Below are positions 47,231-62,480 of a stretch of DNA of 64,000 nt, one piece after another. The notes under the pieces were generated by a model, which saw only the letters and a list, made by a program, of their open reading frames with translations, made no database searches and had not been told where the DNA came from. The translations under genes and the position numbers were made by a program. Where the stretch lies: assembly GCA_026396835.1 (NCBI GenBank), contig JAPLWA010000004.1, forward strand, positions 186,001 through 250,000. The letters are read 5' to 3'. The stretch's first letter is position 1, and every line of letters begins with the position of its first letter. The DNA comes from Candidatus Falkowbacteria bacterium. GTDB taxonomy: Bacteria; Patescibacteriota; Patescibacteriia; Patescibacteriales; Patescibacteriaceae.

Positions 47231-50200
47231 ATGAACCCTTTAGAAAAACAAAGTAATGATGCAAATAAGACCTTGGCTGAGCCGGGTCTTTCTGATCATG
47301 AAAAAAAGTCTCAATGGTCAGCCATCCAAGGTGATATTTGGAACTGTAAAAGGGATAAAGGATTGTCTGACAATGAGTCATTAAAAGATTTTATAGATAG
47401 GAGTTTGTATAAATATAATCATAATATTATTGTCAATGCATTGATTGACGAAGGTGGGTATGCGTCATTTTATGTGATTTACCATCTAGAAGAATTTAAA
47501 GGTTTAGATTACACAGCAATTGCAAATAAGCTTATTGACGAGGGAGGTGGGGAATTTTTTGCTGCACATATTGATAAGTTTAAAGATTTAGATTACGAAG
47601 ATATTGCGGATAAGCTTATTAAGCTTAATTTAGTGGGTTGTGTTACTGGCTATCTTGGAGCATATCATGGTTTAGACCAGGCGGCTCTGGTTGAAAGACT
47701 TATTAAATCAAGATATGCAAAATATGTTGCCAATGATATAGAGAAATTTCAGGACCTAGATCGCGCAGCTATTGCTAACAAGCTTTTAGACAGCGGCTGG
47801 ACCTGGTGTGTTGCTGATAATCTCGAAAAATTTGAAGGTTTAGATCATTTAGCTATTGCTATTAAACTTATTGATGAAGGCAATGAAGAAACCCTGGCTG
47901 AAAATCTTGAAAAATTTCAAGGCTTAGATTATTCAGTCATTGCCAATAAACTTATTGAAAAAGGGAAAGGAGAATATGTTGCTAAATATCTTGAAAAGTT
48001 TCAAGGTGTTAATCACTCAGACATCGCGAAGAAGATTATTGAAACTGGCTCAGTATATTATTTTTTAAGCAATTTTAAAAAATTTCATGGATTAAATCAC
48101 CCAGACATCGCGAAGAAGTTTATTAACATGGGCCTAATACAGGATTTTTTTGATAATTTTGAAGAATTTTATGGTTTGGACCACAATGCGGTGGCCAATC
48201 AACTAATTGATGTCGGTCGACCAGACATATTTATAAAAAAAATTGAAAAGTTTCAAGGCTTAGATATTAATGTCGCAAATAAACTTATTGATAAGGGGTA
48301 TGCTAATTCGGTTGCTGAAAATCTTGCAAAATTTAAGAGTTTAGATGCTGACGTCGCTGATAAACTTATTCAGGCAGGGCAAGGCTCTTTTGTCGCTTCC
48401 TCGCTAGGAAGGTTTGAAAATTTAAATCATACAGAAGCTGCCAATAAGATTATTGATGCGGGACAAGGCTACTCTGTTGCTACTAACCTGAAAATATTTA
48501 AGGGCTTGAATCATGTTGAAATAGTTAATAAGCTAATTGATGCACATCAAGCTATTGCCATTACGGCGAATTTAGAAAAGTTTGAAGGTTTAAATCACAT
48601 AGAAATAGCTAACAGACTAATCGATATTGACGAAGCAAAAGCCGTGGCTATTCAGATCAGTAAATTTTATAATTTAAATACGCAGGTCGCTAATAAGCTT
48701 GTTGATGCACATGAATCTCATTCTGTTGCTTGTTTTCTTTCACGCTTTGATGGTTTAAATCATTTGGAAATTGCCACCAGAATGTTTGATAAAGGGCAGG
48801 GAGATGCGGTTGCAGCCAGTCTTAAGAACTTTCAAGGCCTAGATGAAGATATCGCCAGTAGACTTATTAACATCAATAGAACTCGAGAAGTCGTGGAAAA
48901 TATTGCCAGTTTTAAGGGTCTAAATGAAGAAATAGCTACTAAATTAATTAAATCAGGCAATTATCAGGTGGTTGATTCTAATCCGGAATATTTTAGTTTA
49001 TCAGAAAATATTCAAAATATTATTTCTTCTAAACATCTGACTGTTTCAGAGGCAGTTATTTTAAATGAACAGGAAGCTACTAAATTAAGCAACGAACAAG
49101 CTAATAAGCCAATTGTTAATGTATTAATAGAAAAAGAACACCCTGCTTGGCAGGATAAGGAAAATGTTTTAAATCCTTTTCAAGAAGGTGCTAGTATTTT
49201 TGGCGAAGATAAAATGTTTCAGTATTTAGACCGCATAGGCCTTTCGCGACATGATGGTTTACATCAATTTGCAAAAATTATTGATCTATTTAGAACATCC
49301 GGTTTATCCGCGAATGAGTTTTATAATAATATTTTAATGCAAGTAGCTAGCGATGATGGAGAATATTATTCAGGTACGGCACATCATCAATTCAACTCTT
49401 TGGCTACTTCAATTTCACTAGATTTTAATGAAACAAAAGAATTAGTTAATAAGTATCAGGATGTTTCTAAGTTACAAGTTCTTTTTAGGGAGTTAAATTC
49501 TTTAAAAGAAATCTTTGCTTCTTGGAAAAATTTGAAAAAATTCAAGGAAGTGCAGGAGTTACTAGAAAAAACAGAAATTTTAGATAGATTGGTTGAATTA
49601 AAAAAATACCCTGACAAACAAAAATTAAAAGATTATGTTGAAACCCTGGCTTTCCATCCCGCTATTTCCATGGAAAAGGTAATGCTTTTTTGGCAAAATC
49701 CAGAAAAGTTTTTAGGTCTAGCAGATTCTCATACACCAGAAGAAGTTCATGATCGAAAGAAGCCGTCGAACTATACTAACTTTCCTAACTTAGACTTATC
49801 AGCTAGCAATTTAAGAGATGCCTTGGTTAATGGTGCTTATGATCAAATTCAGTCATTTAAACCATTTTCTGTTGAATATACTTTAAGCGATGGGAAGAAA
49901 AGTGAAGAAGGCATAATCTCTTTAATGAACAGAGCTTTGGGTAAACGTAGTGAAAATATTAAAGGTCAAGCTAAAAATCCACCTAAAGTTTTTAAAGAAT
50001 TAAGCAAGTTTATTTCTAAAGAAGAATTAACTTTGGTTCTATCTGGCAATTTGTCACTATCTGAAGATGATGAAAAAAATATCAAGCAAATAATCTTTAA
50101 TGAAGATATTGGCTTAATGCAGCCTAAAACTAATCGAGAAGTCTATCGAGCGAAAGTCAACAAAAAATCAGACCCAGATGCAGTTGTAGCTGGTAACGAC

Positions 50201-51325
50201 ACTGCTTGTTGTATGCCTTTTGGTAGTGGTAAAAATAACGTTTATACTTTTAATCCTAATTGTGCTTTATTTACTTTACAGAAAAAAGTTGACAATAAAG
50301 TTTGGCGAACAATTGCTCAGAGCGTTCTAACAGAAGACGTTAAAGTCAATAAGAATGTTTCGGATATTGTCGATCAGATAGAAAATAATAATAAAAAATT
50401 AAATACAGTTATTTCTGAAGATATTCTCTTGCAAGAAAAAAGTTTTATAGCATGCGACAATATAGAAGTTGCGGAAAATTTTAAGAATAAGCAGGAAGAA
50501 ATTAAGCTGATCTATCAGGACTTTTTTAAAGAGTATTTGAAACAATTTGCTAGCTTGGATAATTTAGAAGATTCTAAGGTGGTTATTGGTAAGGGCTATA
50601 CTGATGCTCTAACCGATTTGCCTAGTGAAAACAATGAATTTGTGCCACGAGCCCCGGTCGGTTACTCTGATAAATTAGGTGAAGAGGTTTATGTTTTAGA
50701 TTTAAATAAAGATTTTAGAAATACTAGTCAGATCGCTTCAAAGAAGATTATTGATCAAGAATTGTTAACAACAAAAGTTAAGCCAGATTATTTGCCGAAA
50801 GGCGTTGATTATTTGACCTTTAAAGATGCTTTACCGGTAGCCTATATTGAAGGTAAGGCATATGCTCAAAATGAATCACTGATCCAATATCTTCATAACA
50901 TGGAGAATGCTCTGATTGCTAAAGATGTTAATGACGCAGCTAAGAATCGTCCTAATATGAGCTTGAAATATATTGGTGATGACAAGAAAATTCATGGTTA
51001 TATTTTAGCGTATGAAGGTCAGAGTGATGAGACCGGTGAAGGAGTGGTTTATGTTTCTGATTTAGCCTCTGATGGCAATGCTCGTGCTGGAGGGTCTTTG
51101 ATTCTAGGCTTCACTGAAAGCTACAAGCATAATTATTTAGATCAGAATAAATTACATCCAATTTATGCCCAAATGCGTGAAAAAACTTCTTATGCTATTA
51201 TTCAGAAGCAGCTAGAAAAGCTCTCTAAAGGCACTAATATTAAATTTGAGATAGAAGAATTAGAGGTCTATAGGGTTGGTAATGATACAATGCATGAGGT
51301 CATGATTAGAGCCAAAAAAGAGTAG
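47231..51325 (+). CDS. Giant protein with 18 tandem 27-28-residue repeats and a GNAT-like C-terminus
   Basis: 1364 residues, no signal peptide. Residues ~89-587 are 18 helical units of 27-28 residues; each begins F-x-(G/N/S)-L-(D/N) and has IANKLI near its middle and a VAxNLEK-type end. The rest is unique: a helical middle part, a short Cys-containing block (GNDTACCMPFGSGKNN near residue 985) followed by NPNCALFTLQKK, and a C-terminal part (~1235-1364, VYVSDLASDGNARAGGSLILGF) whose glycine loop resembles an acetyltransferase CoA site. It lies between hpf and secA, 14 bases after hpf. No known family could be assigned. Confidence 0.85.
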   Translation: MNPLEKQSNDANKTLAEPGLSDHEKKSQWSAIQGDIWNCKRDKGLSDNESLKDFIDRSLYKYNHNIIVNALIDEGGYASFYVIYHLEEFKGLDYTAIANKLIDEGGGEFFAAHIDKFKDLDYEDIADKLIKLNLVGCVTGYLGAYHGLDQAALVERLIKSRYAKYVANDIEKFQDLDRAAIANKLLDSGWTWCVADNLEKFEGLDHLAIAIKLIDEGNEETLAENLEKFQGLDYSVIANKLIEKGKGEYVAKYLEKFQGVNHSDIAKKIIETGSVYYFLSNFKKFHGLNHPDIAKKFINMGLIQDFFDNFEEFYGLDHNAVANQLIDVGRPDIFIKKIEKFQGLDINVANKLIDKGYANSVAENLAKFKSLDADVADKLIQAGQGSFVASSLGRFENLNHTEAANKIIDAGQGYSVATNLKIFKGLNHVEIVNKLIDAHQAIAITANLEKFEGLNHIEIANRLIDIDEAKAVAIQISKFYNLNTQVANKLVDAHESHSVACFLSRFDGLNHLEIATRMFDKGQGDAVAASLKNFQGLDEDIASRLININRTREVVENIASFKGLNEEIATKLIKSGNYQVVDSNPEYFSLSENIQNIISSKHLTVSEAVILNEQEATKLSNEQANKPIVNVLIEKEHPAWQDKENVLNPFQEGASIFGEDKMFQYLDRIGLSRHDGLHQFAKIIDLFRTSGLSANEFYNNILMQVASDDGEYYSGTAHHQFNSLATSISLDFNETKELVNKYQDVSKLQVLFRELNSLKEIFASWKNLKKFKEVQELLEKTEILDRLVELKKYPDKQKLKDYVETLAFHPAISMEKVMLFWQNPEKFLGLADSHTPEEVHDRKKPSNYTNFPNLDLSASNLRDALVNGAYDQIQSFKPFSVEYTLSDGKKSEEGIISLMNRALGKRSENIKGQAKNPPKVFKELSKFISKEELTLVLSGNLSLSEDDEKNIKQIIFNEDIGLMQPKTNREVYRAKVNKKSDPDAVVAGNDTACCMPFGSGKNNVYTFNPNCALFTLQKKVDNKVWRTIAQSVLTEDVKVNKNVSDIVDQIENNNKKLNTVISEDILLQEKSFIACDNIEVAENFKNKQEEIKLIYQDFFKEYLKQFASLDNLEDSKVVIGKGYTDALTDLPSENNEFVPRAPVGYSDKLGEEVYVLDLNKDFRNTSQIASKKIIDQELLTTKVKPDYLPKGVDYLTFKDALPVAYIEGKAYAQNESLIQYLHNMENALIAKDVNDAAKNRPNMSLKYIGDDKKIHGYILAYEGQSDETGEGVVYVSDLASDGNARAGGSLILGFTESYKHNYLDQNKLHPIYAQMREKTSYAIIQKQLEKLSKGTNIKFEIEELEVYRVGNDTMHEVMIRAKKE
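47495..48992 (+). repeat. Tandem coding repeat of 81-84 bases (18 units)
   Basis: In-frame units in the giant protein, mostly 84 bases, four to five of them 81. Copies are diverged at DNA level but keep the same protein skeleton (F, GLD/GLN, IANKLID, G, VA, NLEK). Insertions or losses of units would stay in frame. Confidence 0.85.
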
Positions 51326-51432: not shown

Positions 51433-54174
51433 ATGAGTGTTATTACGAAAATATTTGGCGATCCTAATGCTAAAGTAATCAAATCTTTGGACCCTTTGGT
51501 TAAATCAATTAACTCTCTTGAAGAGAAATTTTCGGCTTTATCAGACGAAGAATTGAAAAATTTAACGACTGATTTCCGTCGTCGTCTTGGTGTATCTATT
51601 AATGAAGAGGGCCGACCAGTCCAAAGCCTTGACCAAGAAGAAGAAGCTAAGATTTTAGAAGACATTTTACCAGAAGCTTTTGCGGCTGTTCGTGAAGCAG
51701 CTCAGCGCGTTAATAAACAGCGTCATTACGATGTCCAGTTGATTGGTGGAATTATTTTACATCTTGGTCGTATTGCTGAAATGAAAACTGGTGAAGGTAA
51801 AACTTTAGTGGCGACCTTACCGTTATATCTTAATGCTCTACCAGGTCGCGGCGTTCATCTCGTAACAGTTAACGACTATTTGTCTCAGGTTGGTGCCGGT
51901 TGGATGGCTCCGGTTTATCATGCTTTAGGTTTAAGCACGGCCGTTATTATTCATGAGAAAGCTTTGATGTATGATCCGGAATATAATGATGAAAAACAAT
52001 TTGATGAACGTTTAAGACATTTCCGTGAAGTTGAGCGTCAAGCGGCTTATCGTTGTGATGTTTTATATGGTACTAATAATGAATTTGGTTTTGACTATTT
52101 GAAAGACAATATGGTTGATAATTTAGATAGCATGGTTCAGCGCGAACTATACTATTCTATCGTTGACGAAGTTGACTCAATTTTAATCGATGAAGCCAGA
52201 ACTCCTTTGATTATTTCTGCTCCAGCCGAGGAGTCAACAGATCGTTATTACAAGTTTGCTCAGTTTGTTAATACTTTACAGAAAGATGAGGACTATAACA
52301 TTGATGAAAAGATGAAGGCCTCAACTTTTACTGAATCAGCCGTTACTAAATTAGAAAGTTGGTTAGGTGTTGATAATATTTATGCTACTGGTGGTATTAG
52401 AGATATTCATCATGCTGAACAAGCACTTAAAGCCAAGGCTTTATTTGAGCGTGACAAGGACTACGTTGTGCGCGATGGCGAGATTGTAATCGTCGATGAA
52501 TTCACTGGCCGACTTATGTTCGGTCGTCGCTATAGCGAAGGTTTGCACCAAGCCATTGAAGCTAAAGAAGGCGTTAAAGTTCAGCGCGAAAGCCGAACTT
52601 TGGCTACGGTTACCTTCCAAAATTATTTCCGTATGTATCGCAAATTGTCCGGTATGACAGGAACTGCTATTACTGAAGCCGAAGAATTTTTTAAGATATA
52701 TAAATTAGACACGGTTTCTATCCCTACTAATAAACCAACTGTTAGACGCGATTTGAATGATTTAATATACTCTGACGAAGATGCTAAATTTAAAGCAGTC
52801 GTTAAAGAAATTAAAGCTCGTCATGACAGCGGTCAGCCGGTCTTGGTTGGTACAATTTCAATTGAGAGAAACGAATATTTAGGCGCTTTATTAGAGCGCG
52901 AAGGAGTTCAAGCTCAAGTGCTTAATGCTAAGCATCATGAAAAAGAAGCGCCAATTATTGCTCAGGCTGGTACGCCAGGCGCAGTTACAATTGCGACTAA
53001 CATGGCTGGTCGTGGAGTCGACATTATCTTAGGTGGTACTCCATTCGATAAAGACAAATATGACGCTGTAGTGGCAGCTGGTGGCTTACACGTCATTGGT
53101 ACAGAAAGACATGAAGCGCGCCGTATTGATAATCAGCTACGTGGTCGTGCTGGACGTCAGGGTGATCCTGGATCTAGTCAATTTTATGTTTCCATGGAAG
53201 ACGATTTGATGCGTATTTTTGGTGGCGACAGAATGAAAAATATAATGAAGAGTCTGAAATTACCAGAAGACACACCAATTGAAAATAAAGTAATTTCTAA
53301 GTCAATTGAGTCAGCTCAGAGACGCGTTGAAGGCAACAACTTTGATATTAGAAAACACTTAGTTGAGTATGATGACGTTATCAACCATCATCGTAAAGCT
53401 ATCTATGGGCGTCGCCGCGAAATTTTATTAATTAGCGAAGGCAAGAAACAAATTGAGAAAACTTTGCGAGATATTATTCTTGAGATGGTTGAAGTAGAAA
53501 TTGAACAGATTATTAGTTTCCACACTGCTGCCGAAATGGTTAAGGATTGGGACCTGCGGGAAATTAAAAATAGTGTAGCAACAATTTTCCCAATTGAGGG
53601 TGAAATTTCAGCCAAGCTTGATACAATTGCGGCTAACGTTTCTAAGCTAGATAAAATAAAAATCAGAACAGATATTATTGAATATCTAAGTAGCTTGGCT
53701 GGAGAAACTTATGACAAGATGCTTAAGCTAGCCAATGAAGCTGGTTTTAAGTGGTCTGATGTTGAGAAGGCTGTTCTCTTGCGCTCAATTGATGAATTAT
53801 GGATGGAACACTTAGAAATTATGGATTACATGCGTCGCGGCATCGGTCTACGTGGTTATGGACAACGCGATCCATTGGTTGAATATAAAAAAGAAGCTTT
53901 CCGCTTGTTTAATGAATTAACTGGTTTAATTCAAAAGCAAGTTGTCTACTCAATTTACAAAATTGGTGGTTTGCAAGAGTTTGCTTTCCCAACTAACAAT
54001 CTAAATAATATTACTGTTTCTGCACCTGCTAAGACTATGGGTGAAGGAACTTCCAGTACCACCCAAATCTTTACTGAGAATAAGATGAAGGACGCCGAAG
54101 GTAACAAAGTTGGTCGTAATGATCTTTGTCCTTGCGGTAGCGGGAAAAAATATAAGAAGTGTCACGGGAATTAG
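51433..54174 (+). CDS. secA: Preprotein translocase ATPase SecA
   Basis: Motor of Sec export, 913 residues. Walker A EMKTGEGKT at 117-124, DEVDSILIDEARTPLIIS, the GTNMAGRG-like TNMAGRGVDIILGG of the second motor domain, and the helical scaffold are present. The C-terminal zinc-binding end GRNDLCPCGSGKKYKKCHGN binds SecB or ribosomes in other bacteria. Together with secY, secD and secF in this window it gives most of the export system. It is separated from the giant gene by ~107 bases without a clear terminator. Confidence 0.98.
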   Translation: MSVITKIFGDPNAKVIKSLDPLVKSINSLEEKFSALSDEELKNLTTDFRRRLGVSINEEGRPVQSLDQEEEAKILEDILPEAFAAVREAAQRVNKQRHYDVQLIGGIILHLGRIAEMKTGEGKTLVATLPLYLNALPGRGVHLVTVNDYLSQVGAGWMAPVYHALGLSTAVIIHEKALMYDPEYNDEKQFDERLRHFREVERQAAYRCDVLYGTNNEFGFDYLKDNMVDNLDSMVQRELYYSIVDEVDSILIDEARTPLIISAPAEESTDRYYKFAQFVNTLQKDEDYNIDEKMKASTFTESAVTKLESWLGVDNIYATGGIRDIHHAEQALKAKALFERDKDYVVRDGEIVIVDEFTGRLMFGRRYSEGLHQAIEAKEGVKVQRESRTLATVTFQNYFRMYRKLSGMTGTAITEAEEFFKIYKLDTVSIPTNKPTVRRDLNDLIYSDEDAKFKAVVKEIKARHDSGQPVLVGTISIERNEYLGALLEREGVQAQVLNAKHHEKEAPIIAQAGTPGAVTIATNMAGRGVDIILGGTPFDKDKYDAVVAAGGLHVIGTERHEARRIDNQLRGRAGRQGDPGSSQFYVSMEDDLMRIFGGDRMKNIMKSLKLPEDTPIENKVISKSIESAQRRVEGNNFDIRKHLVEYDDVINHHRKAIYGRRREILLISEGKKQIEKTLRDIILEMVEVEIEQIISFHTAAEMVKDWDLREIKNSVATIFPIEGEISAKLDTIAANVSKLDKIKIRTDIIEYLSSLAGETYDKMLKLANEAGFKWSDVEKAVLLRSIDELWMEHLEIMDYMRRGIGLRGYGQRDPLVEYKKEAFRLFNELTGLIQKQVVYSIYKIGGLQEFAFPTNNLNNITVSAPAKTMGEGTSSTTQIFTENKMKDAEGNKVGRNDLCPCGSGKKYKKCHGN

Positions 54175-54190
54175 AAAATTTAATTTAGCT

Positions 54191-54604
54191 ATGAAGAATT
54201 TAATTACAACTAACATTGTTGCAGGTGTAGTCATTAAGCGAGACGGTAAGTATCTGTTAGTGCAAGAAAGTCGACCTGGTACCGATGTGCATGGACTATG
54301 GAATCTTCCAGCAGGAAAGGTAGACGAAGGAGAAACCATAGAACAAGCAGCGATTCGAGAAGCTAAAGAAGAGATTGGATACGATGTTGAGCTAATTCGC
54401 AAACTCGGCATATTCCAAGCTCATGTCCAAACTCCTCCTAAACATGCCTTTGAAGCAAAAATTATTGCAGGAGATCTCGCTTGGCCAAAAGATGAAATTC
54501 AAGATGCCAGATGGTTCACCTATCAGGAGGTTAATGATATGGAAAATCAGTTACGCGAAGAGTGGGTGTTGGGAGCGATAAACTTAGTAGAAACAAGCAA
54601 GTAA
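54191..54604 (+). CDS. Nudix hydrolase
   Basis: 137 residues from the ATG at 54191, 16 bases after secA. The Nudix box is complete at 42-64 (GKVDEGETIEQAAIREAKEEIGY: G-x5-E-x7-REVQEE-like). The N-terminal VAGVVIKRDGKYLLVQE and GLWNLPAGK also fit. It hydrolyses a nucleoside diphosphate derivative; the substrate is unknown. First of three Nudix genes within 5 kb. An open frame upstream overlaps secA and is not used. Confidence 0.92.
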   Translation: MKNLITTNIVAGVVIKRDGKYLLVQESRPGTDVHGLWNLPAGKVDEGETIEQAAIREAKEEIGYDVELIRKLGIFQAHVQTPPKHAFEAKIIAGDLAWPKDEIQDARWFTYQEVNDMENQLREEWVLGAINLVETSK

Positions 54605-54680
54605 TCTTTTAATTAACCTCAAAAAAATTAAGAATAATTCAGGCATCTAATCCAAAAAAAGTGTATGTAAATAAATATAT

Positions 54681-55337
54681 ATGAATGAGCTTAAGCATTT
54701 TGAGCCAATAGAAAAAAATACCTACGAAATAAAAAAGGAAAATATTATACCACTTTATTCATTGCCAGAAGATTTTTCAGAAGATTTGAAGTCATTAGAT
54801 TGGCCATTGGAAGTTCAAGGAACTGGCAGATTATTAGAAGATAATAAAAACTTTGAAATTCGTTATCCTAAGGGTGATATGTTTTACTCTTGGGCTGTTG
54901 TTTTTCATGAATTAGGTCATTTACTACAAGATAAATTAAGTTTAAAAATTAAAATTGAAGAAAACGATCAAACGAAAGCTATCTTAAAAGAAGAAGATGC
55001 TTTTGTTCGAGGATTAGGTAGGGTTCAAAAATATTGTCCTGATATTCTTGAGGTGCTTGATGAAAGATTTAATTATTATAAAAAGCAGGGTAAGTTGCCT
55101 AGTTTTAACTCATTTACCGAATTATATAAAGATTTTTTTAAGATTATTAAAATTAACGAAACATTAAATGTCTTGAAAGAAGGAGAGAGTGAGCTAGAGG
55201 CATTAGAAAAGGTAAATATTCAAAGTTTTTTTAATGACATAGAAGATAATAAAGTTGGGGTTACGATTGACGAAGAAGAGGTGGAGCTGGTGGTTCTTAA
55301 AGTTGTTGATAAATTAATAGAAGAGCAAGCTGTATGA
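54681..55337 (+). CDS. Unknown protein with an HExxH motif (zinc-peptidase-like)
   Basis: 218 residues. WAVVFHELGHLLQDKL holds His76, Glu77 and His80, the zincin motif; a candidate third ligand is among the acidic residues that follow (KEEDAFVRGLGR). The N-terminal block LDWPLEVQGTGRLLEDNKNFEIRYPKGD has a close relative in the truncated gene at 63805-64000, so a paralogous family is present. No signal peptide. Its stop overlaps the next small gene as ATGA. Confidence 0.65.
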   Translation: MNELKHFEPIEKNTYEIKKENIIPLYSLPEDFSEDLKSLDWPLEVQGTGRLLEDNKNFEIRYPKGDMFYSWAVVFHELGHLLQDKLSLKIKIEENDQTKAILKEEDAFVRGLGRVQKYCPDILEVLDERFNYYKKQGKLPSFNSFTELYKDFFKIIKINETLNVLKEGESELEALEKVNIQSFFNDIEDNKVGVTIDEEEVELVVLKVVDKLIEEQAV

Positions 55338-55498
55338 TAAGCTCGGGCAATAGTCAGAGAACAATAGAAAAATTAAATCATTTTTCTTGTTCGTTTTGCT
55401 CAAAGTGGTGGACAGTTGGTGATGCGCCTGAAAATAAAGTAGAATGGTATTGTCCATGGTGTGGTGAAAAAAATGATTTTAAACAGATTGCTAATTAA
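55334..55498 (+). CDS. Small zinc-ribbon protein
   Basis: 54 residues. Two CxxC pairs (CSFC near 19-22 and CPWC near 40-43) form a classic zinc ribbon, with WW and WYC aromatic residues in between. The start overlaps the previous stop by four bases (ATGA), and the next gene starts seven bases after the stop, so it is part of a tight operon. It may act with the HExxH protein. Too short for standard length limits. Confidence 0.7.
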   Translation: MISSGNSQRTIEKLNHFSCSFCSKWWTVGDAPENKVEWYCPWCGEKNDFKQIAN

Positions 55499-55505
55499 AC
55501 TCATT

Positions 55506-55928
55506 ATGGCTTTTTATAATAAAATTGGGCTATTAGTGCTAAGCGATGATAAGTCGAAATTTTTGGTTTGTGAGCCAGGTAACAAATATATAGAGAAAAG
55601 TGTAACGCAATTTTTAATGCCTGGTGGTCAAATTGAAGAATCCTCAGATATAGCATGCTTACAAAGAGAAATAAAAGAGGAGTTGGATTCTGAAATAAAT
55701 GTAGATAGCCTCAAGTTGATTGGTGAATATGTTGATGTTGCCGCTACGCCAGGTCGAGATGTCATGATAAGGCTGTATCTAGGTGAGCTAGTTAGTGAAC
55801 CAACACCATCATCAGAAATTGGAGCTTTGCATTGGATAGGCAAGGAGGATGTTGAGAACCCTAGAGTATCACCTATAATTAAGAATAAAATAATTCCTGA
55901 TTTAGTTGAGAGAAAAATTATTAATTAA
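55506..55928 (+). CDS. Nudix hydrolase
   Basis: 140 residues from ATG at 55506. Nudix box at 41-63 (GQIEESSDIACLQREIKEELDSE) with the REIKEEL core; the preceding MPGG is typical. Downstream LHWIGKEDVENPRVSPIIKNKIIPDLV resembles the Nudix family that ends with such a helix. The substrate is unknown. The open frame extends 15 codons upstream into the zinc-ribbon gene, but the ATG after that gene's stop is preferred. Followed two bases later by a kinase-like gene. Confidence 0.88.
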   Translation: MAFYNKIGLLVLSDDKSKFLVCEPGNKYIEKSVTQFLMPGGQIEESSDIACLQREIKEELDSEINVDSLKLIGEYVDVAATPGRDVMIRLYLGELVSEPTPSSEIGALHWIGKEDVENPRVSPIIKNKIIPDLVERKIIN

Positions 55929-55930
55929 TT

Positions 55931-56551
55931 ATGGAAATATCAACTATAACTAAACCAGGCTTTATTATCGCAATTTGCGGTGGGCCAGGTACTGGTAAAT
56001 CTACTTTAGTAAATAAGTTAACCGAACATTACGGCGCTACGCCGATTTTTGAAGGTGAAGAATTTCCTGAAAGAGTAAAGGAAAATTTGCGAGATAATAA
56101 AAACCAGCTTGAATCAAGAATTTTTTTTAGAAATCTTTTAACTAAAATGCATATTGAGGCAGAACGACTCAAGCAAGCTGGCAAGCTGGTTATCATGGAT
56201 ACTTTTTGGCTGACTAATAATGTTTATACTGAGACTTGGTTGGAACATGATTTTCATAAAGAATTAATGAATGACATGTATGAATTAGACGCTCACTTTC
56301 TATCCATGCCTGACTTGATGATAATTTTAGAATCAGACAAAGAACGCATTAAAGAGTTTATGATGAAGCGGGGGAGACTGTTTGAACTAAGTGATAGTGT
56401 TTTAGATAGATTTGTTAATGCTGGAAGTGCGCATCGTGATTTTTTTAAACGTCGTCTTAATGCGTATTTTATAGACCGCAGTAAGCTGGACTTTCATAAG
56501 CCAAATCATTTTAAGATGGTGACTGACTTAATCGATAAAAAATATGTTTAA
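55931..56551 (+). CDS. Deoxynucleoside kinase-like P-loop protein
   Basis: 206 residues. The P-loop GGPGTGKS is at 17-24. Further blocks are IMDTFWLTNNVYTETWLEHDF (a D-R-S-like dNK substrate segment is replaced by DTFW) and MKRGRLFELSDSVLDRF, similar to the lid of deoxynucleoside or thymidylate kinases. It probably phosphorylates a nucleoside or related compound. Placed between a Nudix gene and an unknown gene, which it overlaps by eight bases. Confidence 0.7.
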   Translation: MEISTITKPGFIIAICGGPGTGKSTLVNKLTEHYGATPIFEGEEFPERVKENLRDNKNQLESRIFFRNLLTKMHIEAERLKQAGKLVIMDTFWLTNNVYTETWLEHDFHKELMNDMYELDAHFLSMPDLMIILESDKERIKEFMMKRGRLFELSDSVLDRFVNAGSAHRDFFKRRLNAYFIDRSKLDFHKPNHFKMVTDLIDKKYV

Positions 56552-57827
56552 AGAAAAAGCCTTTAATAAGCCAAGTGACAGTAATGGAAACACAGACTAT
56601 ATTGTTGATGGCGAAAACGTGGCAGAACGCCGCGAGAAATTAAAGCGAATTATCTCTTCAATCCAATTAGCATACGCTGATTCGATTTATCGTCAGCAGA
56701 CAGACGAAGAGAAAAAAAGTTTTTCCGATATTTTGGAAGATGTTAACGCCTATGTTGTTATTGAGAAATTAAGAAGCGTGGACAGAATTGAAACAAACGC
56801 CAATGGTCTAGTTGAGGAAAGAAAAGAACTAAATCCGTTATTCACTAGAAAGATTGACAATTTATACGAAAGCCAATGTTTAGCTAAAACGATTCATAAT
56901 ATCGATGAACAAATTGATGCTTTACAACCTATTAAAGACTACGTTGAAGATTTAGAAAAACAATCTCGAGCTAAATATCAAAAAGAATGGGCAGAGGATG
57001 ATCTTAGAAAACAAAAAAATGAAAACGAGGTTGAAAAAGCCGGACTCTTTACATTGCGCAATATCGATGAACATTCAACAAACAAAAATGTAAAGAAATT
57101 GAAGGAAGAGCATTTTTCTGATAAAGATGAGTTCATTGAAATAGTTATTCCCGATGTTTTTGCCAGCGGTGAGAAATTTTCAAAAGAATCAATTTTAAAT
57201 TCATTGCGTGAAACAGCAAATAGTATTATTGATAAGCATCCTAATGTTGCAGCTGTAATTGGAAATTCTTGGCTATTGTCATCTCCGTCAGCTAAAAAGA
57301 TTATCCCCTTTAAGATTCTTGAAACAGATAATTTTACTAATTGGTCTCAGTTAGTTGATAAGGATGGCAATATACACAAAGAAAGATTTAATGATTTTAT
57401 CTCTTCAGGTAAGCTGCCTTATAATAGTTTGTTTGGTTATATGCCAAGCGAAGAGTTTGTTAGAAGATTTTCAGATAGAAAAGGCAAGATTAATCTTAAA
57501 GAAATAAATCCTGTTTGGGTTGAAGAAAACAAGGATAGAGAGTTCGAACAAAAAGAAGAAGAATCAAAGATCAAAAAAATGTTTAACAAAGACACTATCA
57601 TATTAGCGGAAAATGTTGATTCAATGTTTGATGATTTCCCTGTTTTCAAAACAAGTTTAGAGGCCGCAGGAATTTATAATCAATTCCTTTCTATATTAAA
57701 ATCTGGATCCGGGCTTACCATGAACCAAATCAATAAAAAATTCTCAAACGAAATGACGGTTTTAGGGGCTGAGCTCAAAAATCACTTAACTAGTGAGAAA
57801 TATATAAATAAAGAAATTATTCTCTAA
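56544..57827 (+). CDS. Hypothetical protein, 427 residues
   Basis: No family recognised. The first half is polar and helical, with a likely coiled coil at ~95-165. A denser central block (NVAAVIGNSWLLSSPSAKKIIPF then FNDFISSGKLPYNSLFGYMPSEEFVRRF, ~residues 230-310) looks globular. No membrane segment. Its ATG overlaps the kinase gene by eight bases, so translation is coupled and a related role is possible. A bidirectional terminator ends it. Confidence 0.7.
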   Translation: MFKEKAFNKPSDSNGNTDYIVDGENVAERREKLKRIISSIQLAYADSIYRQQTDEEKKSFSDILEDVNAYVVIEKLRSVDRIETNANGLVEERKELNPLFTRKIDNLYESQCLAKTIHNIDEQIDALQPIKDYVEDLEKQSRAKYQKEWAEDDLRKQKNENEVEKAGLFTLRNIDEHSTNKNVKKLKEEHFSDKDEFIEIVIPDVFASGEKFSKESILNSLRETANSIIDKHPNVAAVIGNSWLLSSPSAKKIIPFKILETDNFTNWSQLVDKDGNIHKERFNDFISSGKLPYNSLFGYMPSEEFVRRFSDRKGKINLKEINPVWVEENKDREFEQKEEESKIKKMFNKDTIILAENVDSMFDDFPVFKTSLEAAGIYNQFLSILKSGSGLTMNQINKKFSNEMTVLGAELKNHLTSEKYINKEIIL

Positions 57828-57832
57828 ATTTT

Positions 57833-57867
57833 AAAACCGACTTAAGCTATAAGCTCAAGTCGGTTTT
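57833..57867. terminator. Bidirectional terminator
   Basis: AAAACCGACTT (57833-57843) pairs perfectly with AAGTCGGTTTT (57857-57867); between the plus-strand operon and the convergent HD gene. Confidence 0.88.
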
Positions 57868-57870
57868 GTG

Positions 57871-58653
57871 TTAAAGGTACCTGTGACACTGGTTAATTTT
57901 GTTTCTGCAAAATTCAAGATTTGCCTGCTTGTTGTTGAATATTTCCTTCGCCTCATCAGTTAAATATTCATGGTCTTCAAGAAAATCTGCTTCCTCGTTG
58001 AACAATATCCAGCTTTTTGGTTTTGGTTTATTTTTGTATGATTCATCGATGTATCTTTTGAATGATGCTTCAAAGCTTCTAGTACAAAAACCAAGGTGAG
58101 CCAGATCAGCGTCGGCGATTACTTTTTCCAAGTAAGTTCCATTTTTAGCTGTCTGGCAGAACTTTCCATCTTCAAAATATGGACGCGTTGCTAGGATTAG
58201 ATTCTCAACAAGACATATTTCATGCTCGCTGAAGGCTTTTTTTGCCATCATCATTTCTCTGGTTAATAGAGCGCTAATCAATTCGTTACTGACCAAACTC
58301 TCTTCAATGTCATGTCTTTTTAAGATTTCTTTACTAGCCCATGTTGCTCGACCATTTTCATTTTTAGCATTCTGTTCAATGTCATGGCCGTTGCAGGCTA
58401 GCCGTAAATATATAAGATCATATTTATGAAGCTTGCCTCTCTTTAAGGCTTCCATATAAATTAGATCGGCTGCAGCCGATACCGTCACGGAGTGATCAAA
58501 ATTATGAAATTCAAGCGGATACTCGCCAGAACCATAATTATTCATTCCATATTTCTGTAGAATTAACATATTCATCGAATACATTATTTCTCTTGAAGCA
58601 ATTACCTTATTATCAAGGCTATCACTCTCGTTGCCAATAATTTTTTTCGACAT
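57871..58653 (-). CDS. HD-domain metal-dependent phosphohydrolase
   Basis: 260 residues. The HD motif set is visible: His50 and His54 in EFHNFDHSV, His90-Asp91 in CNGHDIEQ, and Asp181/Asp183 in VIADADLAHLG. HD proteins act on phosphodiesters, nucleotides or (p)ppGpp. It is convergent with the operon of Nudix and kinase genes and divergent from a MTH1-like Nudix gene, which favours a nucleotide substrate, by inference. A TTGACA on the minus strand near 58711-58716 may be its -35. Confidence 0.85.
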   Translation of the reverse strand: MSKKIIGNESDSLDNKVIASREIMYSMNMLILQKYGMNNYGSGEYPLEFHNFDHSVTVSAAADLIYMEALKRGKLHKYDLIYLRLACNGHDIEQNAKNENGRATWASKEILKRHDIEESLVSNELISALLTREMMMAKKAFSEHEICLVENLILATRPYFEDGKFCQTAKNGTYLEKVIADADLAHLGFCTRSFEASFKRYIDESYKNKPKPKSWILFNEEADFLEDHEYLTDEAKEIFNNKQANLEFCRNKINQCHRYL

Positions 58654-58724
58654 TTCCGCTATGTTTTAATTTAATGTACAATAAAATATAATTAACATAA
58701 GGATGATAAATTGTCAATCATAAT

Positions 58725-59189
58725 ATGGAAAAAGTAGTCGTTACCATGGCATATATAAGAACAGATAAACAGTTGTTACTCGCACTAAAAAAGCGTGGTT
58801 TTGGCCCTGGAAAATTTAATGGTTATGGCGGCAAAATAAATGACGGAGAAACCATTGAACAAGCCGCTATCCGTGAAACTAGAGAAGAGATTATGGTTGA
58901 AGTTGATAAGTTAGAAAAAAGAGCTTTGATAAATTTTTCATGGAAGACAAACAAAAACAAAGCAATTGAATGCCATGTCTTTGAAATTATCTCTTATCAT
59001 GGAGAAATAGGGGAGACTGAAGAAATGAAGCCAGAATGGTTTGATATAAATAAACTACCTTATGAAAAAATGTGGGACGATGATCCTTGCTGGATGCCAC
59101 ATTTTTTAGCTGGTAAAAAATTTAATGCCAGTTTTGTCTTTAACGATGATGATAAAGTTATAGAACATAAGATTATTTTTTTGGAGTAG
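58725..59189 (+). CDS. Nudix hydrolase of the MTH1/MutT type
   Basis: 154 residues. The Nudix box is at 36-58 (GKINDGETIEQAAIRETREEIM). Other stretches, RGFGPGKFNGYGGK and PEWFDINKLPYEKMWDDDPCWMPHFLAG, closely follow eukaryotic MTH1 (NUDT1), which destroys 8-oxo-dGTP and 2-hydroxy-dATP. The same architecture is common in CPR and archaea. Its role would be to clean the nucleotide pool, in line with msrA/msrB/ahpC for oxidative damage. Confidence 0.9.
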   Translation: MEKVVVTMAYIRTDKQLLLALKKRGFGPGKFNGYGGKINDGETIEQAAIRETREEIMVEVDKLEKRALINFSWKTNKNKAIECHVFEIISYHGEIGETEEMKPEWFDINKLPYEKMWDDDPCWMPHFLAGKKFNASFVFNDDDKVIEHKIIFLE

Positions 59190-59209
59190 GATAGTTTGAT
59201 TTCACCGTG

Positions 59210-59422
59210 CCCTACCCCCAGCCCCTCCCCGCGCAGAGCGCAGGGAGGGGTGACTTATATTAATGTACACACGTTGTAATTAATTTTTCTGATAAAATAC
59301 ATTTAAAATAATGACACGAGTGTTTAGACTGTCAGTAGTTTACGCCGCGATATTTAGTAAAAATATTTTATTTAGTCACCCCTCCCTATTCGCTTGCGAA
59401 TGGGGAGGGGTTGGGGGTAGGG
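59210..59422. mobile_element. Inverted-repeat element with hairpin ends (MITE-like), copy 2
   Basis: The left end 59210-59229 (CCCTACCCCCAGCCCCTCCC) and right end 59403-59422 are inverse complements with one mismatch. Each end folds back (CCCTCCCC/GGGAGGGG around GCGCAGAGCGC on the left; CCCCTCCC/GGGGAGGGG around TTCGCTTGCGAA on the right). The 107-base AT-rich centre encodes nothing. Same family as 11010-11150. No transposase is present, so it would be non-autonomous. Placed between a Nudix gene and the minus-strand RNA. Confidence 0.7.
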
Positions 59423-59435
59423 TATTTTAAAGTAT

Positions 59436-59482
59436 AAAAAAATCCCTCTTATCTTTTTTATTCAAAAAAGATAAGAGGGAAA
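59436..59482 (-). terminator. Strong terminator of the minus-strand unit
   Basis: A perfect 17-pair stem TCCCTCTTATCTTTTTT (59443-59459) / 59464-59480 with a four-base loop; on the minus strand it is followed by seven U residues (59442-59436). Confidence 0.9.
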
Positions 59483-59723
59483 TTGGATTTTTCGTGTTGG
59501 ACTGGGACTGCCTCCCGACCTGTAGGATTTCGGTTTAGTAAACTACAACATTTTTTGGGACCTCCTGCCCTCTATAATTTTTTTCTGTGTTTGTCGTTTT
59601 TTTGCCTCGGTCAATTCACGAGGCTGCTTGCACATAAAACTTGTCTGCTGTGTTGTGGTTATTTGTTTTTCATGCCCCAGACCTCCTAGTCTGCTGAGTG
59701 CAATTTAAATTTAATGAATTGTT
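59441..59723 (-). ncRNA. Structured RNA segment with AGGAGG hairpins (3' UTR or independent RNA)
   Basis: Between the stop of the gene at 59724-60278 and its terminator lie ~240 non-coding bases that fold well. Three hairpins show a GGAGG core: AGACTAGGAGGTCT (59692-59679), GGGCAGGAGGTCCC (59570-59557) and GGGAGGCAGTCCC (59516-59504). A plain stem GCCTCG/CGAGGC lies at 59624-59604, and CAGCAGAC occurs twice. After the first two AGGAGG cores come ATG codons at 7 and 8 bases, each opening a tiny frame (M-K-N-K-stop, M-L-stop). It does not match tmRNA, RNase P, SRP or 6S RNA as far as can be read. Confidence 0.55.
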
Positions 59724-60278
59724 TTAGAAATCTAGCATTATGCCTAGTTCAGGACTTAATATTTTTTTGTCCTTTACTCTAGCACCTGTTATGGCTCCGT
59801 AAACCTTAAACCCTTCTAAAACCATTTTTGAAACTTTAATATTGATAAGCTGTGATACATTGCTTATAAATAATGAGTTAGTAATTTCAAGACTGTTTCT
59901 CTTGAGTTTTACTAAAGCTTCAAGACCTTCGTGTTTGTCTGCTTTGCCGCCAATATTGTCAACGACAAAGAGTTTCGCACTGGCCCACAACTCAGCCTTC
60001 CAGTAATTAGTAGAAATTACATCAAGTACCCTGACTCCGAGTTTGATGCTACCACTATTTATTCCTCTGATTCCGCCATAGCTGACATTGAATAAGAAGT
60101 TGTTATTGCTACCAATTGATAAGCCGGCCGCACCTCTTATATCTCTTGCGTCAGAGGTTCCAGCTATGCCCATGGACATGTCTATCGGCATTTCTAAATC
60201 TTTGGAATTCTGGGACTTTACCTGAGAAACTGTAAATATTGTCAAAAAAACGATAAATACTAACCTAAATTTTCTCAA
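59724..60278 (-). CDS. Secreted protein, possibly beta-barrel-like, of unknown family
   Basis: 184 residues from a TTG start with AAGGAGA six bases upstream. A signal peptide (RKFRLVFIVFLTIFTVSQVKSQ) precedes a body of alternating polar and hydrophobic strands (GLSIGSNNNFLFNVSYGG, SIKLGVRVLDVI) and a C-terminus LSPELGIMLDF ending in Phe, which resembles outer-membrane barrel ends. CPR bacteria are thought to lack an outer membrane, so this is odd and may point to transfer, for example from a Bacteroidota-like source. Perfect promoter at 60322-60350. Confidence 0.7.
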   Translation of the reverse strand: MRKFRLVFIVFLTIFTVSQVKSQNSKDLEMPIDMSMGIAGTSDARDIRGAAGLSIGSNNNFLFNVSYGGIRGINSGSIKLGVRVLDVISTNYWKAELWASAKLFVVDNIGGKADKHEGLEALVKLKRNSLEITNSLFISNVSQLINIKVSKMVLEGFKVYGAITGARVKDKKILSPELGIMLDF

Positions 60279-60284
60279 TTCTTC

Positions 60285-60291
60285 TCTCCTT
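60285..60291 (-). promoter_or_regulatory. Shine-Dalgarno deciding a TTG start
   Basis: AAGGAGA on the minus strand, six bases before the TTG of the 59724-60278 gene; no ATG alternative gives the signal peptide. Confidence 0.75.
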
Positions 60292-60321
60292 AGATTTAAT
60301 GTTAATTTTTATAATATGCTG

Positions 60322-60350
60322 ATTATATCACTTTATTGAATATTTGTCAA
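60322..60350 (-). promoter_or_regulatory. Perfect consensus promoter of the minus-strand unit
   Basis: TTGACA (60350-60345), exactly 17 bases, TATAAT (60327-60322), both perfect. Expected start near 60315. Implies strong, constitutive transcription. Confidence 0.85.
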
Positions 60351-60399
60351 GAGTGGCACAAAAACGAGCTTAAAAATTGAGTTTCCCACACTTTTACCC

Positions 60400-60428
60400 T
60401 TGCTTTTTAATGGTCCTTAATCTACAAT
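60400..60428 (+). promoter_or_regulatory. Promoter of secD-secF
   Basis: TTGCTT (60400-60405), 17-base spacer, TACAAT (60423-60428); start near 60435, 24 bases before the secD ATG. Confidence 0.55.
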
Positions 60429-60458
60429 AGCTAAACAAATATATAATTATAAGAACTT

Positions 60459-62480
60459 ATGTCTGATTCGATATTCTCTAAGATTTTTCTACCTAAGGGT
60501 AGAAACAAGGTGTGGTGGGCTTTTTTGTTTGTGCTTATTATAACTATTGCCGCAGGTTTAGTTACCTTTGGTAATTATTATAATCAAGCTCTAAGTAAGT
60601 GGAAGATTCCTTTGCCACAAACAAAGGAAGTGCCATTTCGCTTAGGTTTAGATTTACAAGGTGGTTCTCAGTTGGTTTATGATGCTGATGTTTCAGCCGT
60701 AGCCGCAAAGGACCAGGCTCAAGCTGTTGAAGGCGCTCGTGACGTTATTGAACGCCGCGTTAACGTTTTCGGCGTTAGTGAACCATTGGTTCAGGTTAAT
60801 CGAACTGCAGATGGAAAATATCGTATTCTAGTTGAATTAGCTGGTATTACTGATATTCGCGAAGCTGTAAAGAAAATTGGAGAGACTCCGCTTTTAGAAT
60901 TTAAAGAACAGCGCAAGGACGCTCCAGTCTTAACTGAACAACAGAAGAAAGAAATCGCTGATTTTAATAAGAAAGCAGAAACTAAAGCTCAGGATGTATT
61001 AGGTAAACTTTTGTCTGGTGGTGATTTTTCTGCCCTAGCTAAAGCTTTTAGCGAAGACACAACAACTAAAGATAATGGCGGAAGTCTTGATTGGGTTGCC
61101 AAAAAAGATAATGCTGACCTAGCTAAAGCAGCGGAAGCTGTTGGTGTTGGAAAAACCAGTAAAGATTTAATAAAAACCTCCGAAGGTTTTGAGCTGCTTA
61201 AGGTTGATGACAAGAGAATTAAAGAAGTTAGAGCTTCTCATATTTTGATTTGCTACAAAGGATCTGAACAATGTACTAATGATTTAAGCAAAGAGCAGGC
61301 TTACGCCAAGATCAAAGAATTGAAGGCCAAAGCTACACCTAAGAATTTTGCTGATTTAGCTAAAGCTAATTCAACTGAAGCAGCTGCTAAAACAACTGGT
61401 GGCGACTTAGATTGGTTTGCTAAGGGTGCAATGGTTGAACCATTTGAAAAAGCTGTTTGGGATCAAAAAGTTGGTACCATTTCTTACGTTGTAGAAACAA
61501 AGTTTGGTTATCACATAATTTATAAGACAGATGAGAATCCAGAATATAAAATAAACCATATTCTCATTAAGACAAAATCAGAAGCTGAAGTTCTTGGCAC
61601 TGATGCTCAATGGAAGAATACTGAATTGACTGGCCGTAATTTAAAGCGAGCTTCAGTTCAATTCAATCAGCAAGACAACACACCTGAAGTAAGTTTAGAA
61701 TTTGATGACCAGGGTGCAAAGCTATTTGAACAAATTACAGCTCGTAACGTTGGTAAACCAGTCGCTATTTTCCTAGATGGTTATCCAATTAGCGTGCCAA
61801 ATGTAAATGAAAAAATTACTGGTGGCAAAGCTGTTATTACTGGTAATTTCACAACCACTGAATCAAAAGATTTAGTAAAGCGTCTAAATGCTGGTGCTTT
61901 GCCTGTTCCAATTAATTTAGTTAACCAACAAACAATTGGTGCTTCATTAGGTCAAGCTTCAGTTGATAATAGCTTAAAGGCAGGATTTGTTGGTCTTATA
62001 TTGGTTGCCTTGTTCATGATTATTTATTATCGCTTCCTAGGTTTCTTATCAGTAATTGCCTTGGGCGTTTATGGAATCTTGTCACTAGCTATTTTCAAGC
62101 TCTGGCCAGTAACCTTAACTTTGTCTGGTATTGCTGGTTTCATTCTTTCTATAGGTATGGCGGTTGACGCGAATATTCTTATCTTTGAACGCTTGAAAGA
62201 AGAATTACGCGCTGGCAGATCATTAAGCTCAGCGATTCAAGAAGGGTTCTCTCGTGCATGGCCATCTATTCGCGATAGTAACTTCACAACTCTTATAACC
62301 TGTGTCGTATTGATTGAATCATCAACCAGTGTTATCAAGGGATTTGCTGTTACATTAATGCTTGGTGTTTTATTGTCACTGTTTAGCGCAATTACAGTTA
62401 CTCGTACTTTCTTACGTTTATTCAGCGAAAAATGGTTTGAAAAACATCGCTGGCTTATTGGCTATAGAAAATCAAATTAA
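60459..62480 (+). CDS. secD: SecD with inserted parvulin (PpiC-like) domains
   Basis: 673 residues. The SecD frame is complete: first helix ~20-38, FRLGLDLQGGSQLVYD at 60-75, ERRVNVFGVSEPLVQV at 98-113, the P1 head VSLEFDDQGAKLFEQIT at ~411-427, and five C-terminal helices with GMAVDANILIFERLKEEL. Between residues ~150 and ~375 is an insertion with parvulin rotamase sequence: one full unit (RASHILICYKG then GGDLDWFAKGAMVEPFEKAVW and FGYHIIYK), a partial one before it (GGSLDWVAKK, SEGFELLKVDD) and a third HIL strand after it (YKINHILIKTK). The insertion sits outside the membrane, so folding help at the translocon exit is inferred. secF follows five bases later. Confidence 0.93.
   Translation: MSDSIFSKIFLPKGRNKVWWAFLFVLIITIAAGLVTFGNYYNQALSKWKIPLPQTKEVPFRLGLDLQGGSQLVYDADVSAVAAKDQAQAVEGARDVIERRVNVFGVSEPLVQVNRTADGKYRILVELAGITDIREAVKKIGETPLLEFKEQRKDAPVLTEQQKKEIADFNKKAETKAQDVLGKLLSGGDFSALAKAFSEDTTTKDNGGSLDWVAKKDNADLAKAAEAVGVGKTSKDLIKTSEGFELLKVDDKRIKEVRASHILICYKGSEQCTNDLSKEQAYAKIKELKAKATPKNFADLAKANSTEAAAKTTGGDLDWFAKGAMVEPFEKAVWDQKVGTISYVVETKFGYHIIYKTDENPEYKINHILIKTKSEAEVLGTDAQWKNTELTGRNLKRASVQFNQQDNTPEVSLEFDDQGAKLFEQITARNVGKPVAIFLDGYPISVPNVNEKITGGKAVITGNFTTTESKDLVKRLNAGALPVPINLVNQQTIGASLGQASVDNSLKAGFVGLILVALFMIIYYRFLGFLSVIALGVYGILSLAIFKLWPVTLTLSGIAGFILSIGMAVDANILIFERLKEELRAGRSLSSAIQEGFSRAWPSIRDSNFTTLITCVVLIESSTSVIKGFAVTLMLGVLLSLFSAITVTRTFLRLFSEKWFEKHRWLIGYRKSN

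Follow-up and report, generated by a model that had tools for sequence, protein, structure and literature searches.

A Shine-Dalgarno-rich minus-strand segment that may be the 3' trailer of an orphan gene in a Candidatus Falkowbacteria genome

We describe a minus-strand segment (59441-59723) of a 64,000-nucleotide window, the whole stretch of DNA analyzed here, which we read, with a probability of roughly 55%, as an untranslated 3' trailer belonging to a lineage-specific transcription unit that is complete in itself. The segment follows directly on an orphan gene, carries two full-length Shine-Dalgarno (SD) sequences each succeeded by a very short start-stop frame, and is absent from the relatives sampled. 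The genome around it retains an anti-SD within its 16S RNA, yet only a few genes there are SD-led. The finding is real; the feature itself is probably ordinary, apart from one unusual aspect that can be tested.

Layout of the transcription unit and its surroundings

The unit is flanked by a NUDIX gene and secD, and its parts follow one another on the minus strand in this order:

60322-60350, minus: sigma-70 type promoter TTGACA-17-TATAAT with an extended -10 (TGATATAAT), 12/12 consensus
60286-60291, minus: Shine-Dalgarno AAGGAG, 7 bases ahead of the TTG start
59724-60278, minus: orphan gene, an open reading frame of 184 aa with a TTG start and a hydrophobic N-terminus like a signal peptide
59441-59723, minus: the segment of this report, putative 3' trailer, beginning right after the stop codon and ending in the terminator
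59687-59681, minus: AGGAGGT site 1, inside hairpin 1
59673-59659, minus: start-stop frame ATG-AAA-AAC-AAA-TAA (MKNK*), 3' of site 1
59566-59560, minus: AGGAGGT site 2, inside hairpin 2
59551-59543, minus: start-stop frame ATG-TTG-TAG (ML*), 3' of site 2
59515-59511, minus: third GGAGG, with no start codon after it
59443-59480, minus: intrinsic terminator found by sequence scan, with a 17-bp stem, a loop of 4 and a T7 tail

Promoter, SD, open reading frame and terminator share one orientation and leave no gap, an arrangement that fits a 3' trailer: a co-directional gene lies directly upstream, a terminator closes the segment, and a consensus scan detected neither an intervening promoter nor one belonging to the segment itself. 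An initial annotation of this DNA had the segment driven by a perfect promoter. That promoter exists, but it stands 600 bases upstream of the segment and in front of a protein gene; perfect promoters of this type are not rare, with 24 in the genome. The strong terminator and the direct repeat reported in the same annotation are both present, the repeat CAGCAGAC occurring twice in the segment. We assume read-through from the orphan gene into the segment. The whole unit, from the promoter through the SD-led gene and the trailer of about 280 nt to the terminator, would be transcribed as one message, in which the trailer would mainly terminate transcription and protect the 3' end; its SD-like sites may have a weak affinity for 30S subunits, and a dedicated role would not be needed. 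Terminated bacterial 3' UTRs and the sRNAs derived from them resemble the segment in their position after a stop codon, their terminator hairpin with a T-run and their placement on the gene's strand. The segment differs from terminated 3' UTRs by its dense full-length SD sequences in a genome hardly using SD.

The product of the orphan gene is probably a secreted protein. Codon usage in its reading frame is of the coding type, with a score of 0.15 in frame versus -0.14 out of frame. The protein has no match in Pfam, NCBIfam or PDB. Its one PHROG match, to a family of unknown function, is weak (E 0.0099), and genome G408 has a hit of 28% identity (E 0.005); no convincing relative was found in the genome samples of the genus, family, order, class and phylum or among phages and viral contigs. 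An AlphaFold model built without an alignment is beta-rich, with a confidence (pLDDT 38) too low for a fold search. A C-terminal Phe behind a strand-like segment and a signal-like N-terminus ending in Q recall outer-membrane beta-barrel proteins, which would be odd in a Patescibacterium; the quality of the model is too low to decide this.

The stretch between secA and secD (51433-62480) holds other genes before secD in two genomes of the same genus, and in a third the contig ends at secD. Gene content here varies among same-genus genomes, as in a variable gene region; by eye, its genes were named as NUDIX, CYTH-like, kinase-like and amidase-like, among others. Just past the terminator, at 59210-59422, lies an inverted pair made of the dispersed GC-rich repeat CCCTACCCCCA[AG]CCCCTCCC and its complement, a repeat with copies at about 20 places in the genome that resembles a REP/REPIN element. 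SecD itself (60459-62480) contains two PPIC-type rotamase stretches within the protein and aligns over nearly its full length with many relatives in the order, an architecture that seems shared. Elsewhere in the window, 47231-51325 encodes a 1364-aa protein with many repeats of the type LEKFQGLDxxxIANKLID and no Pfam family above the cut-off.

Predicted folding and the search for relatives

As an alternative to the trailer, the segment may be a regulatory RNA with a structure of its own, either released from the 3' UTR by processing or residing within it, that would be closed by a long-range helix and would act on RNA or protein partners. We regard it as unlikely. The structures to be considered, all based on thermodynamic prediction from one sequence, are as follows:

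59678-59693, minus: hairpin 1, CAGAC-UAGGAG-GUCUG, holding AGGAGGT site 1; -7.2 kcal/mol with flanks, in isolation
59604-59624, minus: hairpin GCCUCG...CGAGGC, without GGAGG; pair probability 0.83-1.0
59557-59570, minus: hairpin 2, GGGC-AGGAG-GUCCC, holding AGGAGGT site 2; pair probability 0.76-0.89
59504-59516, minus: possible hairpin 3, GGGA-GGCAG-UCCC, at the third GGAGG; -5.9 kcal/mol with flanks, in isolation
59499-59683, minus: predicted closing helix, formed between 59683-59671 and 59510-59499; most pairs at P about 0.95

A regulatory RNA of this kind is favored by the closing helix, by a second long-range helix (P 0.4-0.67), by a robust internal hairpin, by A-rich single-stranded linkers and by the strong terminator. 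The fold of the whole segment has a z-score of -3.0, but the terminator accounts for it: the body without the terminator reaches only z = -0.45, a fold matched or surpassed by 63 of 200 shuffles. By this comparison the structured RNA described earlier is not confirmed as a strongly structured one, hairpins 1 and 3 being displaced by long-range pairing as well. Of the three GGAGG hairpins proposed there, the ensemble keeps only hairpin 2, which persists together with the GCCUCG/CGAGGC hairpin; hairpin 1 competes with the closing helix, and hairpin 3 is not the favored pairing when the whole RNA is folded. The AGGAG of hairpin 2 is predicted to be unpaired (0.98-1.0), and in the same prediction the ATG of either start-stop frame is partly engaged in base pairs.

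The absence of relatives also speaks against a regulatory RNA. Searching 60 relatives and 381 genomes of the class by blastn returned only A-rich or terminator fragments, and a single-sequence covariance model (R1) run on the family (13 genomes) and the order (111 genomes) gave a best non-self score of 19 bits, judged to be chance. Whether blastn or the covariance model was used, the search for conserved hairpins at the level of genus, family, order and class yielded chance matches only; the initial annotation had named a lack of conservation in relatives as the result that would count against its proposal, and this is the result obtained. The segment has no relative in phages or plasmids either, and exact matches to the hairpin motifs in viral contigs fall in unrelated contexts. 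A known Rfam family had been named as a second result that would count against the proposal: at the gathering score Rfam recognizes only tRNAs in the window and nothing in the segment, and at relaxed thresholds it returns chance matches, mostly to the terminator. RNase P and tmRNA, tried as candidates, are both located elsewhere in the genome.

SD sites, start-stop frames and their rarity in the genome

The raw anatomy expected of an RNA that catches 30S subunits or acts through minigenes is present, and it is statistically unusual for this genome. Both AGGAGGT sites are complementary over seven bases to the 3' end of the genome's own 16S rRNA (GGATCACCTCCTTTCT), where the initial annotation had advised looking for an anti-SD. 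As it had also described, two full AGGAGGT sites and a third GGAGG are present, and an ATG with an early stop begins 7-8 bases past each AGGAGGT (8-9 bases past AGGAGG). Both instances have the sequence layout of a bar-type minigene: SD, ATG and a stop within a few codons.

These sites stand out in a genome whose ordinary genes rarely use SD, as had been supposed: an SD motif stands ahead of 7.3% of first ATGs and 4.9% of internal ones, the first ATG of a frame being a crude proxy for the start codon. Motifs were counted over the whole assembly (1.05 Mb, 36% G+C, 96% complete). Counting both strands, there are 37 AGGAGGT, and the segment is the sole 283-base stretch in the genome to hold two copies; no other intergenic stretch has three GGAGG. 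A GGAGG within a comparable hairpin is found at 26 of 522 sites genome-wide, compared with two of the three sites in the segment. Among 48 intergenic AGGAGG sites, 3 have an ATG 5-10 bases on and then a stop no more than four codons later; two of these three are in the segment, and the third (C4:147403, minus strand) lies inside a large palindrome and is unlike the RNA described here. A Markov estimate puts the chance of an ATG plus early stop at 0.011 per site. The motif set behind all of these rarity statistics was picked post hoc from the sequence, and their significance is overstated.

Such figures bear on a reading in which 30S subunits would be drawn by their anti-SD to the two full-length SD sites, and the MKNK and ML frames would trap initiating ribosomes or release short peptidyl-tRNAs in the manner of lambda bar. 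With few genes being SD-led, such a role would draw on a spare interaction surface. The lambda bar minigene reads ATG-ATA-TAA. Bar minigenes and the two frames are alike in having an SD at normal spacing, then an ATG, and a stop after 2-4 codons; no sequence relation between them is known, and the frames of the segment belong to a putative 3' trailer and lie within hairpins. A mini-gene of fewer than seven amino acids is toxic because peptidyl-tRNA builds up, which makes a minigene role mechanistically reasonable, and the only natural SD-bearing mini-gene that the authors of that work could find is the lambda-related dipeptide one (PMC9955659). The seven-base complementarity, the SD-ATG spacing, the concentration of start-stop sites in the segment, the Markov estimate and the unpaired AGGAG of hairpin 2 all favor ribosome catching. 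Against it stand zero conservation, the partial pairing of both ATGs, the predicted placement of site 1 partly within the long-range helix, a third site without a start codon and the post hoc nature of the statistics, and we consider it somewhat less likely even than a structured regulatory RNA. The more specific proposal, in which a lineage-specific RNA would trap or sense 30S subunits via the under-used anti-SD, with two SD-minigene modules that the SD-led cassette gene carries in its trailer, is improbable.

Remaining alternatives and meaning of the finding

The segment could also be decayed or degenerate DNA, left by an insertion or a lost gene beside the orphan gene. Frame 2 stays open over 53 codons, with a single TAG up to the terminator, in a region that varies among relatives and adjoins repeats of a dispersed element. 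Yet random sequences of equal composition are expected to contain an open frame of this length in 55% of cases, codon scores are non-coding in every frame of the segment, and neither Pfam nor PHROG gives a match; we see decay as a long shot. Very unlikely is a small-protein gene formed by the 30-codon frame from the ATG at 59635 to the TAG at 59543 (MCKQPRELTEAKKRQTQKKIIEGRRSQKML): the frame is open and has a basic, protein-like composition, but no SD precedes it, the enclosing 53-codon frame scores below 98.7% of gene pieces, and no family match or relative was found. Least probable of all is a CsrB/RsmZ-like sponge for a GGA-binding protein, which the initial annotation had offered as an alternative: the small loop of hairpin 1, on a stem of 5-6 bp, does display AGGA and comes close to the A(N)GGAX loop bound by Csr/Rsm proteins (PMC4005645), and GGA in small hairpin loops is a likeness to CsrB/CsrC and RsmX/Y/Z, but the segment offers one or two candidate loops, one of them robust in the ensemble, rather than an array, its loop lacks the N, and neither CsrA nor Hfq was detected by phmmer among six-frame ORFs of the genome (the two CsrA queries, from E. 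coli and B. subtilis, gave no match up to E 10).

The reading of the segment as a 3' trailer is favored by a body that folds no better than shuffles and is non-coding, by an RNA and a protein both without relatives in samples ranging from genus to phylum or among phages, plasmids and viral contigs, and by the variability of the secA-secD stretch. Against it, 280 nt is a considerable length for a plain trailer, and neither the crowding of intergenic AGGAGGT nor that of SD and start-stop sites, both unique in the genome, is explained by a neutral trailer.

As a single unconserved example, the segment is mainly evidence that genomes of this kind can contain non-coding stretches rich in SD. If the minigene reading were true, an RNA that concentrates SD-minigene modules would provide a handle on what the anti-SD does in this genome.
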